A stretch of DNA of 64,000 bases from Halarchaeum grantii (GTDB lineage: Archaea; Halobacteriota; Halobacteria; Halobacteriales; Halobacteriaceae), in assembly GCF_014647455.2 (NCBI RefSeq), contig NZ_BMPF01000001.1:806001-870000 (forward strand), read 5' to 3'. Within the stretch, counting starts at the first letter, position 1. Each line of letters starts with the position of its first letter. The translations under genes were made by a program, and so were the position numbers. Shown here in pieces: positions 9,392 through 17,563 of the stretch. The notes under the pieces were generated by a model. That model was not told the DNA's origin and ran no database searches. It saw only the letters and a program-made list of their open reading frames with translations.

Positions 9392-9438
9392 GGTCGAACC
9401 CGCACGCCTTTCTACGCTCCTCGTCCTACGACAGCCAG

Positions 9439-10044
9439 ATGCGGACGCTCGTTCCGTTCGACGCCACGGACCCGAAGACGCGCCTCGCGGGACTGTTCAC
9501 CCCGTCGGAGCGACGCGACCTCGCGGGCGTGCTGCTCGCGGACGTCCTCGCGGCGCTCCGCGCGGCGGGCGGCGACCCGCTCGTCGTCGCGACCGAGTCG
9601 GTCGACTGCGCGGCGCCCGTCGTCGTGGACGAGCGGCCGCTGAGCGAGGCGGTGAACGCCCGTCTCGACGCGGGGACGGCGGTGGTGATGGCCGACCTCG
9701 CGCTCGCGACGCCGCGCGCGCTGGCGCGCTTCTTCGCGGCGGACGGCGACGTGGTGCTCGCCCCGGGTCTCGGCGGCGGGACGAACGCGCTCGTCGTTCG
9801 GGACGACGCCTTCGCGGTCGACTACCACGGCACGTCCTACCTCGACCACCTCCGGGCCGCCCACGAGGGCGGGCTGTCGGTTCGGGAGTTCGACGCGACG
9901 CGGCTCGCGCTCGACGTGGACGAGCGTGCGGACCTCGCGGACGTGCTGGTGCGCGGGGAGGGCGAGGCGGGCGCGTGGCTCCGCGAGGCGGGCGTCCGCC
10001 TCGACCGGACGGGCGGGCGGACGACCGTCACCCGAAGCGAGTAA
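9439..10044 (+). CDS. cofC: 2-phospho-L-lactate guanylyltransferase
   Basis: A 201-residue nucleotidyltransferase that activates 2-phospholactate with GTP for coenzyme F420 synthesis. It has the family start MRTLVPFDATDPKTRL, then LFTPSERRDLAGVLLADVLAAL, and the core APGLGGGTNAL. Length and order match archaeal CofC. The upstream in-frame extension lacks family similarity, so the ATG at 9439 is used. It is followed by a small membrane protein and cofG on the same strand, giving an F420-biosynthesis context. Confidence 0.93.
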   Translation: MRTLVPFDATDPKTRLAGLFTPSERRDLAGVLLADVLAALRAAGGDPLVVATESVDCAAPVVVDERPLSEAVNARLDAGTAVVMADLALATPRALARFFAADGDVVLAPGLGGGTNALVVRDDAFAVDYHGTSYLDHLRAAHEGGLSVREFDATRLALDVDERADLADVLVRGEGEAGAWLREAGVRLDRTGGRTTVTRSE

Positions 10045-10483: not shown

Positions 10484-10613
10484 GGTTGCGCGAGGTCGAA
10501 GAACTCGCCGGCCGTACGCGGTGGGTTCCCGGGAGCCGGCAGCCAGCGCCCGCCGGACGCGTCGGGGTGTCGGGGTAGCAATCCTTTTCGGGACGGACGC
10601 AATAGCGACAGGC

Positions 10614-11720
10614 GTGTTCCCGGGAGTCGAGGAGTACGGGGTGGACGTGCACGTCGCGGACCGCGACGTGGAGCGCGCGCTGGCGGTGCGACCGGACGAC
10701 GTCGAGGCCGCCGACGAGCTCTCGTTCGCGCGCAACGTCTTCGTGCCGCTGACGACGGCGTGTCGCTACACCTGCACGTACTGCACCTACTACGACCCGC
10801 CCGGGCAGGCGTCGCTGATGACGCCCGAGGGGATACGCGAGACGTGTCGGCGCGGCGCCGACGCGGGCTGTACGGAGGCGCTGTTCACCTTCGGCGACGA
10901 CCCGGACGACCGGTACACGGAGATCCACGCCGAACTCGCGGAGCTCGGCCACGACTCCATCCACACGTACCTCCGGGAGGCGTGCGAAATCGCGCTCGAC
11001 GAGGGCCTCCTCCCGCACTCGAATCCGGGCGACCAGACGCACGCGGAGATGGCGGCCGTCGCGGACGTGAACGCCTCGATGGGCGTGATGCTGGAGACGA
11101 CCGCGGAGGTGCGGGCGCACGGCGGGCCGCGCTCGAAGGTGCCGGGCCAGCGCCTGAACACCATCGCGAACGCCGGGAAGCTCGACGTGCCGTTCACGAC
11201 CGGCATCCTCGTGGGAATCGGGGAGACGTGGCGCGACCGGGCGGAGAGCCTGCTCGCGATCCGCGACCTCCACGAGCGCTACGGCCACGTCCAGGAGGTC
11301 ATCGTCCAGCCGGTCTCGGACAACGAGCGCTGGCACGAGGGGTCGCCCTCGCTGGCGACGATGCGCCGCGCCGTCGCGATGGCGCGCGACGTCCTCCCCG
11401 ATTCGGTGTCGGTGCAGGTGCCGCCGAACCTCTTCGACGCCCGCGAGGTGGTGGACTGCGGCGTCGACGACCTCGGCGGCGTCTCGCCGGTGACGGACGA
11501 CCACGTGAACCCGGACTACGCGTGGCCGGCGCTGCGCGAACTCGAAGCGGTCGCCGAGCACGCGGGCGTCCCGCTCGCGGAGCGCCTCCCGACCTACGAG
11601 CGGTTCCTCGAGTCGGAGCGCTGGACGTCCGAGCGGATCCGATCGGCGCTCGAAGCGACGGACGAGGCGGGCGAGCGCTATCGGGCGGTTCGGGCGGGGG
11701 CGACCGGCGCGGCCGACTGA
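10614..11720 (+). CDS. cofG: FO synthase subunit 1 (7,8-didemethyl-8-hydroxy-5-deazariboflavin synthase)
   Basis: A 368-residue radical SAM enzyme that, with CofH, forms FO, the chromophore of coenzyme F420. The 4Fe-4S cysteines C50, C54 and C57 are in CRYTCTYC. Downstream segments TFGDDPD, HSNPGDQT, KVPGQRLNTI and VQPVSDNERW are typical of CofG. I use the GTG at 10614: the protein then begins FPGVEEYGVDV like its homologues, and a TATA-like ATCCTTTT lies about 28-35 bases before it. cofH is 4.5 kb away on the other strand. Confidence 0.95.
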   Translation: MFPGVEEYGVDVHVADRDVERALAVRPDDVEAADELSFARNVFVPLTTACRYTCTYCTYYDPPGQASLMTPEGIRETCRRGADAGCTEALFTFGDDPDDRYTEIHAELAELGHDSIHTYLREACEIALDEGLLPHSNPGDQTHAEMAAVADVNASMGVMLETTAEVRAHGGPRSKVPGQRLNTIANAGKLDVPFTTGILVGIGETWRDRAESLLAIRDLHERYGHVQEVIVQPVSDNERWHEGSPSLATMRRAVAMARDVLPDSVSVQVPPNLFDAREVVDCGVDDLGGVSPVTDDHVNPDYAWPALRELEAVAEHAGVPLAERLPTYERFLESERWTSERIRSALEATDEAGERYRAVRAGATGAAD

Positions 11721-11932: not shown

Positions 11933-13630
11933 GTGAGTCTGAACACGACCGAGCAGTGGAAACAGGAGAAACACCCCCTCGACGTCGTCGAGGACCTCCG
12001 CGAGTACGCAGAGGAGGAACTCGGTTTCGACGACATCGAGGAGCGGGCGGGCGACGGCGAGTGGGAGCGCCTCAAGTGGGCGGGGGCGTACACGCAGAAG
12101 CAGGACGGCTACTTCATGGTGCGGACGAAGGTCCCCGGCGGGCACCTCACCCCCGAGCAGGCCGAGGTCATCGGCGAAGTCGCCGAGGAGTACGCCGTCC
12201 AGCCCGACGAGGAGTACGAGGAGGTCAACGACGAGTTCTGGGGCGACGCCTACCTCGACATCACGACGCGCCAGGACATCCAGATGCACTGGATCCGAGT
12301 CGAGGACGTCCCCGAGATCTGGGACAAGTACGACGAGGTCGGGCTCACCACGATTCAGGGGTGTGGTGACTCCGCCCGGAACGTGCTCGGCTGTCCGGCC
12401 GCCGGCCTCGACGACCACGAGTGCTTCGACGCTCAGCCCGTCATCGACGCCGTCTCCGACTACTTCACGAACAACCGCGAGTACGCCAACCTCCCGCGGA
12501 AGTTCAAGATGACCATCACGGGCTGCAAGCACGACTGCGCGCAGTCCCAGATCAACGACGTCGGCCTCGTCCCCGCGAAGAAGCAGACCGACGAGGGCGC
12601 CGTCTACGGCTTCCACGCTCGCGTCGGCGGCGGCCTCTCCGACGGTCCGCGAATGGCCTCCGAGCTCGACGTCTTCGTCCGCCCCGAGCACGCCGTCGAG
12701 TTCTGCCGCGCCATCGCGCAGACGTTCAAGGAGCTCGGCGACCGCCACAACCGCGGCGTCTGCCGGATGCGCTACCTCGTCCAGCAGATGGGGCCCGAGA
12801 ACTTCGAGCAGGCGGTCCGCGACCGCTGTGACGTCGACCTCCCGAACGCCGGCATCGACCTCACCGAGGGGTACACCGGCGACCACGTCGGCGTGCACGA
12901 CCAGAAGGAGGACGGCCTGAAGTACGTCGGCTTCAACGTCATCTCCGGGCGCGTCGGCGGCGACGAGTTCGTCGAGGCCGCCCGCGCCGCGAAGGAGTAC
13001 GGCACCGAGGAGTCGACCGTCCGCCTCGCGACCGACCAGAACTTCCTCATCACGCACGTCCCCGAGGAGAACGTCGAGGACCTCGTGAACGAGGCGTTCG
13101 CCGAGGACTACCAGCCCGACCCCGGCCCGTTCTCCCGCGGTGCGGTCGCCTGTACGGGCACGGAGTACTGCAAGTACGCCATCATCGAGACGAAGGCGCG
13201 CACCAAGCAGTGGGCGCGCCAGCTCGACGAGCAGATCGAGACGCCCGACGACCTCGACGTCGTCCGCATGCACATGTCCGGGTGTTCGGCGTCCTGCGCA
13301 CAGCCCCAGATCGCGGACGTCGGCTTCCGCGGCGAGACCGTGAAGGTCGAGACCGCCGACAACAGCGACGACGACATCGTCGAGGGGATGGACTTCGGCC
13401 TCGGCGGGAGCCTCGGCCCCGACAACGCCTTCCTCGACTGGGTGGAGACCGCCGTCCCCGCCGGGAGCGTCACCGGCGCCCTCGAGGAGCTGTTCGCCGT
13501 CTACACCGAGGAGCGCACGGAGGACGAGCGCTTCTACGAGTGGACGCGCCGCGTCGACAACGACCGCCTGCGCACCGTGATGCAGCGTGCCGACGGCCCC
13601 GTCTCCAAGGGGGTGGCGCACGGTGACTGA
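11933..13630 (+). CDS. Siroheme-dependent nitrite/sulfite reductase
   Basis: A 565-residue hemoprotein with two ferredoxin-like halves. The siroheme/4Fe-4S cysteines are C407 and C413 (CTGTEYC) and C451 and C455 (CSASC). The first half has a matching region with ITGCKHDCAQ. It reduces nitrite to ammonia or sulfite to sulfide by six electrons; the motifs do not separate the two substrates. The start is the GTG at 11933, which gives the N-terminus SLNTTEQWKQE. Its last 8 bases overlap the next gene, an FrhB-type iron-sulfur flavoprotein, so that protein is the likely electron donor. Confidence 0.88.
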   Translation: MSLNTTEQWKQEKHPLDVVEDLREYAEEELGFDDIEERAGDGEWERLKWAGAYTQKQDGYFMVRTKVPGGHLTPEQAEVIGEVAEEYAVQPDEEYEEVNDEFWGDAYLDITTRQDIQMHWIRVEDVPEIWDKYDEVGLTTIQGCGDSARNVLGCPAAGLDDHECFDAQPVIDAVSDYFTNNREYANLPRKFKMTITGCKHDCAQSQINDVGLVPAKKQTDEGAVYGFHARVGGGLSDGPRMASELDVFVRPEHAVEFCRAIAQTFKELGDRHNRGVCRMRYLVQQMGPENFEQAVRDRCDVDLPNAGIDLTEGYTGDHVGVHDQKEDGLKYVGFNVISGRVGGDEFVEAARAAKEYGTEESTVRLATDQNFLITHVPEENVEDLVNEAFAEDYQPDPGPFSRGAVACTGTEYCKYAIIETKARTKQWARQLDEQIETPDDLDVVRMHMSGCSASCAQPQIADVGFRGETVKVETADNSDDDIVEGMDFGLGGSLGPDNAFLDWVETAVPAGSVTGALEELFAVYTEERTEDERFYEWTRRVDNDRLRTVMQRADGPVSKGVAHGD

Positions 13631-15167
13631 TCGGACTCCGGGCGTCCCGAACGTCGGGACGTCGAACGAGAGCGACGGCGAGAGCGGCTCCTGCGGGAGC
13701 GACTGCGGCTGTTCGACGGACGCCGGCCCGAGCGAGGAGTCCACGGCCGTCCGCGCCGACGGGGGTGAGGGCTCCGTAGGAGCGCGAGGAACGTCGGAGC
13801 TCCGCTCCGACGGTGCTGGCGCCGTCAACGTCGACGAGAACGGCCAGCTCGGCGACGTCGACTTCACGCCGCCCTCCGAGGGGAAGAGTCAGGACGTCGA
13901 CTCGCCCGGCGCGGAGCCGGACACGCGCGTCGGCGTTCCCGAGGGCGTCGACCTCGACACGCCCGAGTACTCGATCCGCTCGGAGATGAACGACATCGAG
14001 ACGCCCGACGAGAAGACGTGGTTCATGGAGCTCGACGAGGCCGTCATCGACGCCGACCGCTGTATCCAGTGCGGGACGTGCGTCGCCGCCTGCCCCTCGG
14101 ACTCCATCGGCGTCGGCGACGACGGGAAGCCCGAACTCGTCAAGATGTGTACGGGCTGCTCGATGTGTTGGGACTTCTGTCCGCGCGGCGGCCTGCGCTA
14201 CGAGCGCCAGTGGAAGATCACCGGCGGCGACGACAACGTCTCCGGCGCGGGCGACCCCATCACGGAGTTCACCGCGAAGGTTCGCGACGACTGGCACGAG
14301 GACGCACAGGACGGCGGCGTCGTCACCGCGATGCTCTCCACGCTCCTCGAAGACGGCGAGATCGACGGCGCGCTCGTCGCCACCGAGTCCGAGGAGGACC
14401 CGTGGAAGGCCGAGTCCTTCCTCGCGACGAGCCACGAGGACCTCGTCGAGAACGCCGGGTCGTTCTACAACCAGACGATGGCGCTCGGCAACCTCGACCT
14501 CGGGCAGTGGGAGGACAAGCTCCCCGAGAAGGACCCCGAGGACCTCAGCCTCGCGCTCGTCGGCACGCCCTGCGAGATCGAGGGCATCAGCGCCCTCCAG
14601 GACTTCGACTGGTCGAAGGGCGCGCAGACGGAACTCGTCGAGGCCGTCGACTTCCGCATCTCGCTGATGTGCACGAAGAACTTCAACTACGAGCGCCTCA
14701 TCGGCGAGCAGCTCGCCGAGAAGCGCGACATCTACCCCGAGGACATCGGGAAGATGGACGTCATCGAGGGCGAGATGCGCGTCTACGGGACCGACGGCGA
14801 GCAGATCATCGCCGAGGACGTCAACGAGTTCCACGACGCCACCCTCAAGGGCTGTGACGAGTGTGCGGACTTCACCGGCATGACCTCCGACGTCACCGTC
14901 GGCTCGGTGGGGTCGGCGGACGGCTACTCCTCCGTCATCGTCCGCAACGAGCAGGGGATGAAGGCGTGGGAGGCCACCGAGGCCGCCCTCGAGCACCGCG
15001 ACCTCGACTCCCGGAAGGCGGTCGGGAAGCTGCAGGGCTGGGACAAGAAGAAGGCCTTCGAGTCGCTCGAGCGCCCCTTCGACCCGGACGCCCCGCGCTT
15101 CATCGACTACACCGACCACGCCGAGTACTACGGCACGCAGGTCGCCCCGCACGAGCAGGGCCACTAA
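13623..15167 (+). CDS. FrhB/FpoF-type coenzyme F420-oxidoreductase with two 4Fe-4S clusters
   Basis: A 514-residue protein. It has a Ser/Gly-rich N-terminal tail of about 110 residues with a small Cys cluster (C24, C28, C30), a two-cluster ferredoxin domain (CIQCGTCVAACP at 147-158 and CTGCSMCWDFCP at 176-187), and an FrhB-like N- and C-terminal region that binds F420 and FAD (GTPCEIEGISAL, CTKNFNYE, CDECADFTGMTSDVTVGS). It probably oxidises F420H2 and passes electrons to the reductase encoded just upstream. The GTG start at 13623 lies inside the reductase gene, an 8-base overlap that implies coupled translation. Confidence 0.88.
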   Translation: MTDRTPGVPNVGTSNESDGESGSCGSDCGCSTDAGPSEESTAVRADGGEGSVGARGTSELRSDGAGAVNVDENGQLGDVDFTPPSEGKSQDVDSPGAEPDTRVGVPEGVDLDTPEYSIRSEMNDIETPDEKTWFMELDEAVIDADRCIQCGTCVAACPSDSIGVGDDGKPELVKMCTGCSMCWDFCPRGGLRYERQWKITGGDDNVSGAGDPITEFTAKVRDDWHEDAQDGGVVTAMLSTLLEDGEIDGALVATESEEDPWKAESFLATSHEDLVENAGSFYNQTMALGNLDLGQWEDKLPEKDPEDLSLALVGTPCEIEGISALQDFDWSKGAQTELVEAVDFRISLMCTKNFNYERLIGEQLAEKRDIYPEDIGKMDVIEGEMRVYGTDGEQIIAEDVNEFHDATLKGCDECADFTGMTSDVTVGSVGSADGYSSVIVRNEQGMKAWEATEAALEHRDLDSRKAVGKLQGWDKKKAFESLERPFDPDAPRFIDYTDHAEYYGTQVAPHEQGH

Positions 15168-16210: not shown

Positions 16211-17563
16211 CTAGTCGAGGAGCGGCGTACCGTCGGCCTCCGGGCCGAGGCGGGGGCCGATGACAGCCGTGTCCGGGTCGACGCGGCGGCGCTCCGTGTA
16301 GTCCGTCGAGCGCTCGACCGGCGTGCGACCGATGGCCGTGATCATCTCCGCGTAGTCCCGGAAGGATCGGAACTCGCCGTACTCGCCGCCCGCGCGCTTC
16401 GTAATCTCCTCGGAGAGGATGGTGCCCATGAAGTCGTCCGCGCCGCAGTTCAGGAGCTTCATCCCGTGCTCGTCGCCGTACTTCACCCACGAGGACTGAA
16501 TGTGCTCCACGTTGTCGAGGAAGAGCCGGGAGACGGCGACCATGAGTTCGTCCTCGGCCTTCGAGGCGCCCGAGTCCACGACGCCGTGCTCGTGGAGCGG
16601 CGTGTTCTGGTGGATGAACGACAGCGGGACGAACTCCGTGATGTTGTCCGTGCGGTCCTGTAAGTCCCGGATCACCTTCAGGTGCCGGACGCGGTGGGCC
16701 TCGTTCTCGACGTGCCCGTACATGATGGTCGCGGTCATCGGGAGGCCGACGTCGGCGGCGGCCTCCATCGACGCCACCCACTCGTCGGTGGTGATCTTCC
16801 CGGGGCAGATGACGTCGCGCACCTCGTCGACGAGGATCTCGGCCGCCGTCCCGGGCACCGTCTTCAGGCCGACGTCCGCGAGCTCGCGGTAGACGTACTC
16901 GTAGTCCCAGTCCGCGCCGCGCTGGGCGTGATGGACCTCCTCGGGCGTCATCGAGTGAACGTGTGCGCCCGTCTCCGCCATCGCCGCGATCTGCTCGCGG
17001 TAGGTCGCGGGCGGCGTCTCGTAGACCTCGGGGGGCTTGAAGTTGAGTTCGGGGTCGTCGGGGTCGAGGAGTTCGCGGTGCTCCTCGTCGAGCGTCATGC
17101 CGGGGTGGAGGCCGGACACCGACGTGACCTCGTAGACGCCGCGCTCGACGGCGTCGCCCACGATGTCGCGGGATTCCGCCGGTGTCTTCGTGAAGCCGCC
17201 GTGCTCGTCCTGATACTCTTCCTCGAACTGGTGGGCGGTGTCCTTGAAGTTGCAGAAGAGACAGCCGACGTTGCACGCGGTGGTGACGTTGTTGTTGACG
17301 TTCGCGACGAACGTCACCTCGTCGCCGACCACCTCGGCGCGCCGGCGGTCAGCGGCCTCGAGGACGAGTTCCTTGCGTCGCGGGTCGATGCCCACGGCGT
17401 CCGTCCCCGTGGTCATGAGTTCGATGCCGTCGTCGACGCTGAGCCGCTCGCCGTCGCGGGCCTTCGCGAGCGCGTTCTCGAAGGATTGGTCGGTTTCGGG
17501 CAGCACCTCGAAGCCGAACTCGTCGGCCTCGAGCGAACTCGCCCGGTCGTCGATCCAAGACAT
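16211..17563 (-). CDS. cofH: FO synthase subunit 2
   Basis: A 450-residue radical SAM enzyme, partner of CofG in making FO for coenzyme F420. The cluster cysteines are C97, C101 and C104 in CNVGCLFC. NVNNNVTTACN precedes them, and SGLHPGMTLDE, GTAAEILVDEVR and the C-terminal LNCGADDFMGTI follow, all typical of CofH. Length is slightly above the usual 370-450. It lies opposite the cofC-cofG block with the reductase operon in between, so all FO steps plus CofC are within 8.2 kb. Confidence 0.95.
   Translation of the reverse strand: MSWIDDRASSLEADEFGFEVLPETDQSFENALAKARDGERLSVDDGIELMTTGTDAVGIDPRRKELVLEAADRRRAEVVGDEVTFVANVNNNVTTACNVGCLFCNFKDTAHQFEEEYQDEHGGFTKTPAESRDIVGDAVERGVYEVTSVSGLHPGMTLDEEHRELLDPDDPELNFKPPEVYETPPATYREQIAAMAETGAHVHSMTPEEVHHAQRGADWDYEYVYRELADVGLKTVPGTAAEILVDEVRDVICPGKITTDEWVASMEAAADVGLPMTATIMYGHVENEAHRVRHLKVIRDLQDRTDNITEFVPLSFIHQNTPLHEHGVVDSGASKAEDELMVAVSRLFLDNVEHIQSSWVKYGDEHGMKLLNCGADDFMGTILSEEITKRAGGEYGEFRSFRDYAEMITAIGRTPVERSTDYTERRRVDPDTAVIGPRLGPEADGTPLLD

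Follow-up and report, generated by a model that had tools for sequence, protein, structure and literature searches.

An overlapping siroheme reductase and FrhB-type gene pair in Halarchaeum grantii, a probable F420H2-dependent assimilatory sulfite reductase

RESULTS

A siroheme reductase gene overlaps an FrhB-type gene between cofG and cofH

We analyzed a stretch of 64,000 nucleotides of the Halarchaeum grantii genome (NCBI RefSeq assembly GCF_014647455.2, contig NZ_BMPF01000001.1, positions 806,001 to 870,000 of the forward strand), hereafter the window, focusing on two overlapping genes that code for a siroheme reductase (alpha) and an FrhB-type protein (beta). The two proteins are probably subunits of a single F420H2-dependent assimilatory sulfite reductase. 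For haloarchaea, the same pair was put forward as a putative enzyme of this kind by Susanti and Mukhopadhyay in 2012, under the name aFsr-alpha/aFsr-beta (PMC3448663). The idea put forward in a preliminary description of the window is therefore a rediscovery, and its claim that such a system is not well described fails. The locus comprises the following features.

11933..13630, + strand: alpha (aFsr-alpha), assimilatory-type siroheme [4Fe-4S] reductase; GTG start, 565 amino acids (aa)
13623..15167, + strand: beta (aFsr-beta), FrhB/FpoF/Fsr-N-type predicted F420H2 oxidase subunit; GTG start, 514 aa
13623..13630, + strand: 8-base start/stop overlap of alpha and beta, GTGACTGA, read from the sequence
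13609..13616, + strand: Shine-Dalgarno-like site GGGGGTGG within the coding end of alpha, 6 nucleotides (nt) before the beta start

The 8-base overlap reported in the preliminary description was thus confirmed. So was the proximity of cofC (9409-10044), cofG (10521-11720) and cofH (16211-17563, - strand), which had been placed within 6 kb and lie within 4 kb; each exceeds its curated NCBIfam cut-off, and the pair sits between cofG and cofH. For beta, the nearest named relatives come from Halarchaeum nitratireducens and H. acidiphilum (88-91%).

The pair and its overlap are conserved across haloarchaea

The type of alpha found in the window (alpha1, with its partner beta1) was present in 39 of 146 haloarchaeal genomes, and in 39/39 beta lay directly downstream on the same strand. 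When named loci were collected by means of beta, alpha adjoined it in 79 of 80; the exception, locus L151, holds an additional beta, its genome having a complete pair as well (L134). The pair is thus conserved across haloarchaea, the opposite of the outcome that the preliminary description had named as refuting its reading. As a control, the Haloferax volcanii genome gave matches to NIR_SIR but none to FrhB_FdhB_C. In all 79 testable named pairs a beta start codon precedes the end of the alpha stop codon, the overlap being 8 nt in 37 and 11 nt in 42, which argues that it is no accident of GC-rich coding. A Shine-Dalgarno-like motif was present upstream of the beta start in 77 of these 79 pairs. 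The conserved adjacency and the 8- or 11-base overlap support the earlier suggestion of a split, translationally coupled pair of partners resembling the F420-dependent sulfite reductase (Fsr).

The commonest upstream neighbor of the pair in the named loci is SRP54, and no conserved sulfur-gene neighborhood was found there around the plain alpha1-beta1 pair. Halorubrum laminariae carries two copies of the pair (L149 and L150), located ~40 kb apart on one scaffold.

Alpha is a double-repeat siroheme reductase with additional conserved cysteines

Domain searches revealed alpha to be a double repeat, with two NIR_SIR plus NIR_SIR_ferr units (NIR_SIR, 2e-52; NIR_SIR_ferr, 7.5e-33), and detected neither a Fer4 domain in alpha nor a rhodanese domain in alpha1. 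The AlphaFold2 model of alpha has a predicted local distance difference test score (pLDDT) of 87.4 and a predicted template modeling score (pTM) of 0.90. Its top fold match is Mycobacterium tuberculosis NirA (1zj8; TM score, 0.84), and the matches also include plant nitrite and sulfite reductases (NiR and SiR; TM scores of 0.81-0.84 across 1zj8 and the plant NiR). Three sets of residues of alpha are relevant here.

12500..12508, + strand: K190-F191-K192 codons; Lys at the substrate site in place of the Asn226 of plant NiR, from alignment to tobacco NiR (KWN) and its N226K mutant 3vlx (KWK)
13151..13297, + strand: motif beginning with C407-X5-C413, invariant in every aligned sequence
12362..12538, + strand: four cysteines of the N-terminal half (C144, C154, C198 and C202), a possible second metal site, conserved in 103/103 alpha1

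The N-terminal half, to which these conserved cysteines belong, is normally without a cluster. An internal-repeat comparison showed that C144, C198 and C202 correspond to C407, C451 and C455, which are three of the four residues that ligate the cluster in the active half; this makes a second metal site in the N-terminal half of alpha plausible. C154, C198 and C202 are also kept in 31/31 members of the stand-alone KFN group of reductases described below, and are replaced jointly (by N, S and S) in two distant sequences, one KWK-type (L084) and one alpha2; this joint loss suggests that they share a metal site.

Beta combines a dicluster ferredoxin domain with an F420-oxidoreductase domain

Domain searches with beta identified Fer4 domains followed by FrhB_FdhB_N (4e-21) and FrhB_FdhB_C (5.7e-32), and alignments defined three regions.

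13623..13967, + strand: N-terminal extension of ~115 aa, of low complexity, with the Cys-rich motif CGSDCGC; from the alignment, pLDDT <50
14061..14180, + strand: two ferredoxin-type [4Fe-4S] motifs, C147/C150/C153/C157 and C176/C179/C182/C186; Fer4 matches, invariant in 26 sequences
14268..14996, + strand: F420-oxidoreductase domain with a third [4Fe-4S] motif, C317, C350, C411 and C414; cysteines invariant in 26 relatives, cofactors assigned by homology (PMC11493965)

The best matches of beta by sequence in the Protein Data Bank were 8riu_B, the F420-reductase subunit of the Ethanoperedens carbon monoxide dehydrogenase (CODH) (2.8e-40), and Fsr (9.9e-40; alignment covering residues 136-469 of beta), followed by FwdI and FrhB. 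F420-active modules as a whole matched at E values of 1e-40 to 1e-28. The F420-reductase domain of 8riu_B contains one [4Fe-4S] cluster and FAD (PMC11493965), and C317, C350, C411 and C414 of beta align to conserved cysteines of that protein. By homology, beta would thus carry three [4Fe-4S] clusters. Of the two clusters attributed to it in the preliminary description, both ferredoxin-type motifs stand, but the total does not, given the third conserved motif. The AlphaFold model of beta is weak (pLDDT, 56) and useful only for residues ~210-480; a fold search with it returned the F420-reducing CODH and Fwd modules, Fsr and FrhB first, and plant HCAR later.

In the phylum sample, scores fall from 560 bits or more for the betas of haloarchaea to 235 bits for the next best protein; none with a comparable score was found outside haloarchaea in that sample. 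The N-terminal extension of beta1 is long, acidic and of low complexity, and a small Cys motif (C-x3/4-C-x-C) occurs in most, not all, members. A lone beta without alpha (L077, 4301-7386; 64% identical) adjoins genes for an FAD-dependent dehydrogenase-like and an integrase-like protein, and a different oxidoreductase may have co-opted the module in this case.

Sulfite is the most likely substrate of alpha

Phylogenetic analysis separated four groups of haloarchaeal siroheme reductases, each split off by a branch with a bootstrap of 100, in a tree for which the program warned of long branches: alpha1 (with beta1), alpha2 (with beta2), and the stand-alone KWK and KFN groups. No siroheme reductases other than alpha1 and alpha2 were found with beta, and these two group together, separate from KWK and KFN (support, 100), which fits a single origin of the partnership with beta.

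The residue at the position of tobacco NiR Asn226 is Lys in alpha1 (103/103), alpha2 (10/10) and KWK (6/6), and Asn in KFN (31/31). The N226K exchange in tobacco NiR reportedly favors sulfite. As the stand-alone KWK group has this Lys as well, Lys192 alone was rejected as proof of a beta-dependent enzyme. In most of the KWK loci read (L079-L084), the reductase gene is close to that of a small conserved protein of ~90-130 aa with the motif RxNAYTTxDxxDG.

In five of seven loci inspected, KFN genes adjoin a gene for NasA, the nitrate reductase of the assimilatory pathway (NF041323; score above the cut-off). The genome of the window carries one KFN gene (L006, 7539-11518; contig C3 of genome G000, ~465.5-469.5 kb), which has as neighbors a NarK-type transporter gene, a urease operon and a gene with weak similarity to MobA; within the L006 stretch read, NasA was not seen. 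As this genome has both alpha and KFN, alpha is not needed there as a nitrite reductase; no third siroheme reductase was found in it.

KWK is carried by 13/39 alpha1 genomes and by at least 75/107 genomes without alpha1 (Fisher p, 1e-4; the latter count is a lower bound, and groups were assigned by bit score), and KFN by 28/39 alpha1 genomes and 34/107 others (Fisher p, 2e-5), both tests treating related genomes as independent. That alpha1 is rarer with KWK and commoner with KFN would be expected if alpha1 and KWK were alternative sulfite reductases and KFN a nitrite reductase. In 7/146 genomes, alpha1 was the only siroheme reductase found.

Family names were of no help in this respect. Alpha scored 394 bits against the NCBIfam nitrite reductase NF007125 and did not reach the cut-off of 594, but neither did the nas-type KFN paralog (424.6 bits), so that the shortfall of alpha is weak evidence. 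NCBIfam names were dropped as a guide to substrate because alpha and its paralogs reach no equivalog cut-off. M. tuberculosis NirA, the closest fold match, is a sulfite reductase according to the title of Schnell 2005, as cited in PMC11237513. Altogether, sulfite is most likely the substrate of alpha, much more so than nitrite, as judged from the residues and gene distributions. Of the two activities that the preliminary description had left side by side, F420H2:sulfite is thus favored, and nitrite as the main substrate was rejected on the basis of Lys192 (103/103 alpha1, against Asn in KFN), the way in which the groups co-occur across genomes, and the nas-type enzyme that this genome has in addition.

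F420 supply and linkage to cof genes

The genome of the window codes for the F420:NADP oxidoreductase NpdG (263 bits; cut-off, 149.8). CofG, found in 146/146 genomes, indicates that F420 is at hand in all of them, with or without the pair. Genes of the cof set flank the pair in 9 of the 80 named loci (Halarchaeum, Halospeciosus, Halegenticoccus, Halogranum, Salinigranum, Halobonum and one metagenome-assembled genome), and cofG lies at most 5 kb from it in 3/39 genomes (G000, G039 and G122) versus ~0.1 expected, with p of 2e-4 if these are independent, which they are not fully. With such numbers the cof neighborhood provides weak support, and a general linkage of the pair to cof genes was rejected. 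F420 has a redox potential near -380 mV and the sulfite/sulfide couple one of -116 mV (PMC10229431), making the energetics favorable. From the relatives of beta and this setting, use of F420 by the pair appears likely.

A second pair carries fused rhodanese domains

The alpha2-beta2 pair occurs in 18/146 genomes (in 17 of them both genes were scored directly; G002 was added through locus L078). In the three members scanned, alpha2 has two N-terminal rhodanese domains. The loci are L069 (3769-7391), L070-L076, L078 and L088, and the second rhodanese domain keeps the active-site loop CNTARR. In one genome (L073), genes for siroheme synthase and for a CysD/CysH-like protein lie close to alpha2-beta2. 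Rhodanese fusions were noted in 2024 in 19/529 NirA proteins, in a passage that draws no link to an FrhB partner (PMC11237513). We propose alpha2-beta2 as a candidate F420H2:thiosulfate reductase, in which the fused rhodanese domains would split thiosulfate and pass sulfite directly to the siroheme.

DISCUSSION

Proposed mechanism

In the mechanism that we consider probable, NpdG would regenerate F420H2 from NADPH, and F420H2 would donate a hydride to FAD in beta. Single electrons would then pass through the three [4Fe-4S] clusters of beta to the [4Fe-4S]-siroheme of alpha, where the transfer of six electrons to sulfite would yield sulfide for the synthesis of cysteine. The overlapping start and stop codons, together with the ribosome-binding site inside alpha, would couple translation and yield equimolar subunits. 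We infer complex formation, the FAD in beta, F420 as the donor and sulfite as the physiological substrate.

Several points count against this proposal. As cofG was found in 146/146 haloarchaeal genomes, F420 genes are universal in the class and their co-occurrence with beta carries no information. Beta is far under the equivalog cut-offs for FpoF (113 of 475 bits) and FrhB (125 of 331.5 bits); on sequence grounds, it is a relative and not an orthologue of these proteins. Methanocaldococcus jannaschii Fsr is described as reducing nitrite too (PMC10202398), so that an enzyme with a Lys-type site may still turn over nitrite. Both Fisher tests suggest more certainty than is warranted, since related genomes are non-independent, and the count of stand-alone Lys-type enzymes is a lower bound. 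Finally, plant HCAR, which also has the FrhB fold, is among the fold matches of beta.

Plant HCAR uses ferredoxin. The same complex might therefore act on the same substrate with beta fed by reduced ferredoxin, or by another flavin donor, and F420 not involved; the dicluster ferredoxin domain of beta could accept such electrons, and the KWK and KFN relatives of alpha work without beta, presumably on ferredoxin. We regard this as unlikely, because the F420-active modules match beta clearly better than HCAR does by sequence and fold, HCAR not being among the 60 sequence matches listed, because ferredoxin as the donor would make beta unneeded by alpha, and because in several genera the pair is bordered by cof genes.

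Two other alternatives concern the reaction of alpha. That the pair is an F420H2:nitrite oxidoreductase for nitrogen assimilation would agree with the best sequence and family names for alpha, which are those of nitrite reductases, and has parallels in the F420-dependent nitrite reductase of anaerobic methanotrophic archaea (PMC9295563) and in the nitrite activity of M. jannaschii Fsr. It is nevertheless very unlikely in view of the invariant Lys192 of alpha1, the position of alpha under the NCBIfam nitrite-reductase cut-offs, the lack of any nas gene seen next to the pair, and the separate Asn-type enzyme of the same genome, encoded next to genes for a NarK-type transporter and a MobA-like protein and with relatives located beside NasA. 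A main role in sulfite detoxification, part of the role of methanogen Fsr (PMC10229431), or in reduction of thiosulfate or another sulfur oxyanion, with assimilation secondary, is highly improbable. The rhodanese domains of the sister pair point to thiosulfate, but alpha1 has none, and its status as the sole siroheme reductase found in seven genomes and its trade-off with the stand-alone Lys-type enzymes fit a basic assimilatory role.

A bolder scheme can be built on the assimilatory F420H2:sulfite enzyme. A single origin of the beta partnership would have given rise to two F420H2-driven sulfur enzymes, the plain pair and alpha2-beta2 as a one-complex F420H2:thiosulfate reductase, and C154, C198 and C202 of alpha, with C144, would hold a second metal cluster, the remnant of an ancestral twin site, that relays the electrons of beta. 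Taken as a whole, this scheme is possible but rather doubtful.

Significance and relation to known systems

The pair of the window is a well-supported instance of a published prediction. The tree legend in PMC3448663 names Halogeometricum, Halorhabdus, Halalkalicoccus and Haloterrigena, and the name aFsr was repeated in 2022 (PMC9295563). NP_4006A, 27% identical to Fsr, was listed in 2021 as too distant for the same function to be assumed (PMC8305020). No experimental test of aFsr was found in the open-access papers searched, subscription literature being outside the scope of the search. Our additions to the 2012 proposal are the near-perfect linkage and conserved overlap, the evidence for sulfite, the apparently single origin of the beta partnership, the alpha2-beta2 pair and the N-terminal cysteines of alpha.

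The physiological role of F420 in haloarchaea has been called undetermined in a review (PMC8498797), and another paper counts a single F420-dependent reaction reported for halophiles (PMC8305020). As a candidate for an enzyme that consumes F420H2 in an aerobe, the pair is both concrete and widespread. If the proposal is correct, F420H2, instead of ferredoxin or NADPH, would drive sulfur assimilation in many haloarchaea, and one F420 plug-in module would be common to assimilatory sulfite reductase, Fsr, CODH and Fwd.

The aFsr of the 2012 proposal was described as a double-repeat subunit of the assimilatory sulfite reductase (aSir) type with a separate Fsr-N homolog, i.e., FrhB with two N-terminal ferredoxin-type [4Fe-4S] motifs, the genes lying together (PMC3448663). 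All of this was found in the window, with no essential difference; what the window adds is a Halarchaeum instance, the start/stop overlap, and a placement with cofG on one side and cofH on the other. Methanogen Fsr (7np8, 7npa; PMC10229431) similarly joins an F420H2 oxidase module with an N-terminal dicluster ferredoxin to a siroheme sulfite reductase, but it is a single chain whose single-repeat Dsr-type domain contains an inserted ferredoxin, whereas the haloarchaeal enzyme has two chains and a double-repeat, aSir-type alpha with no such insertion. Beta shares its arrangement, a ferredoxin domain followed by an FAD/[4Fe-4S] F420 domain, with CODH zeta of "Candidatus Ethanoperedens" (8riu_B) and FwdI (8rja_E) (PMC11493965). 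These are plug-in F420 modules on other metalloenzymes, and they rank with the proteins of solved structure that are most closely related to beta, the best match being 8riu_B; unlike beta, which would run in the opposite direction, they reduce F420 with electrons from their partners, and the partner enzymes are unrelated (PMC11493965). As for alpha, its fold, double repeat and [4Fe-4S]-siroheme motif are those of M. tuberculosis NirA/SirA (1zj8) and the plant ferredoxin-nitrite reductases. All these enzymes take electrons from free ferredoxin; the plant NiR have Asn at the position of Lys192, and alpha differs from NirA/SirA and plant NiR by the extra cysteines of its N-terminal half.

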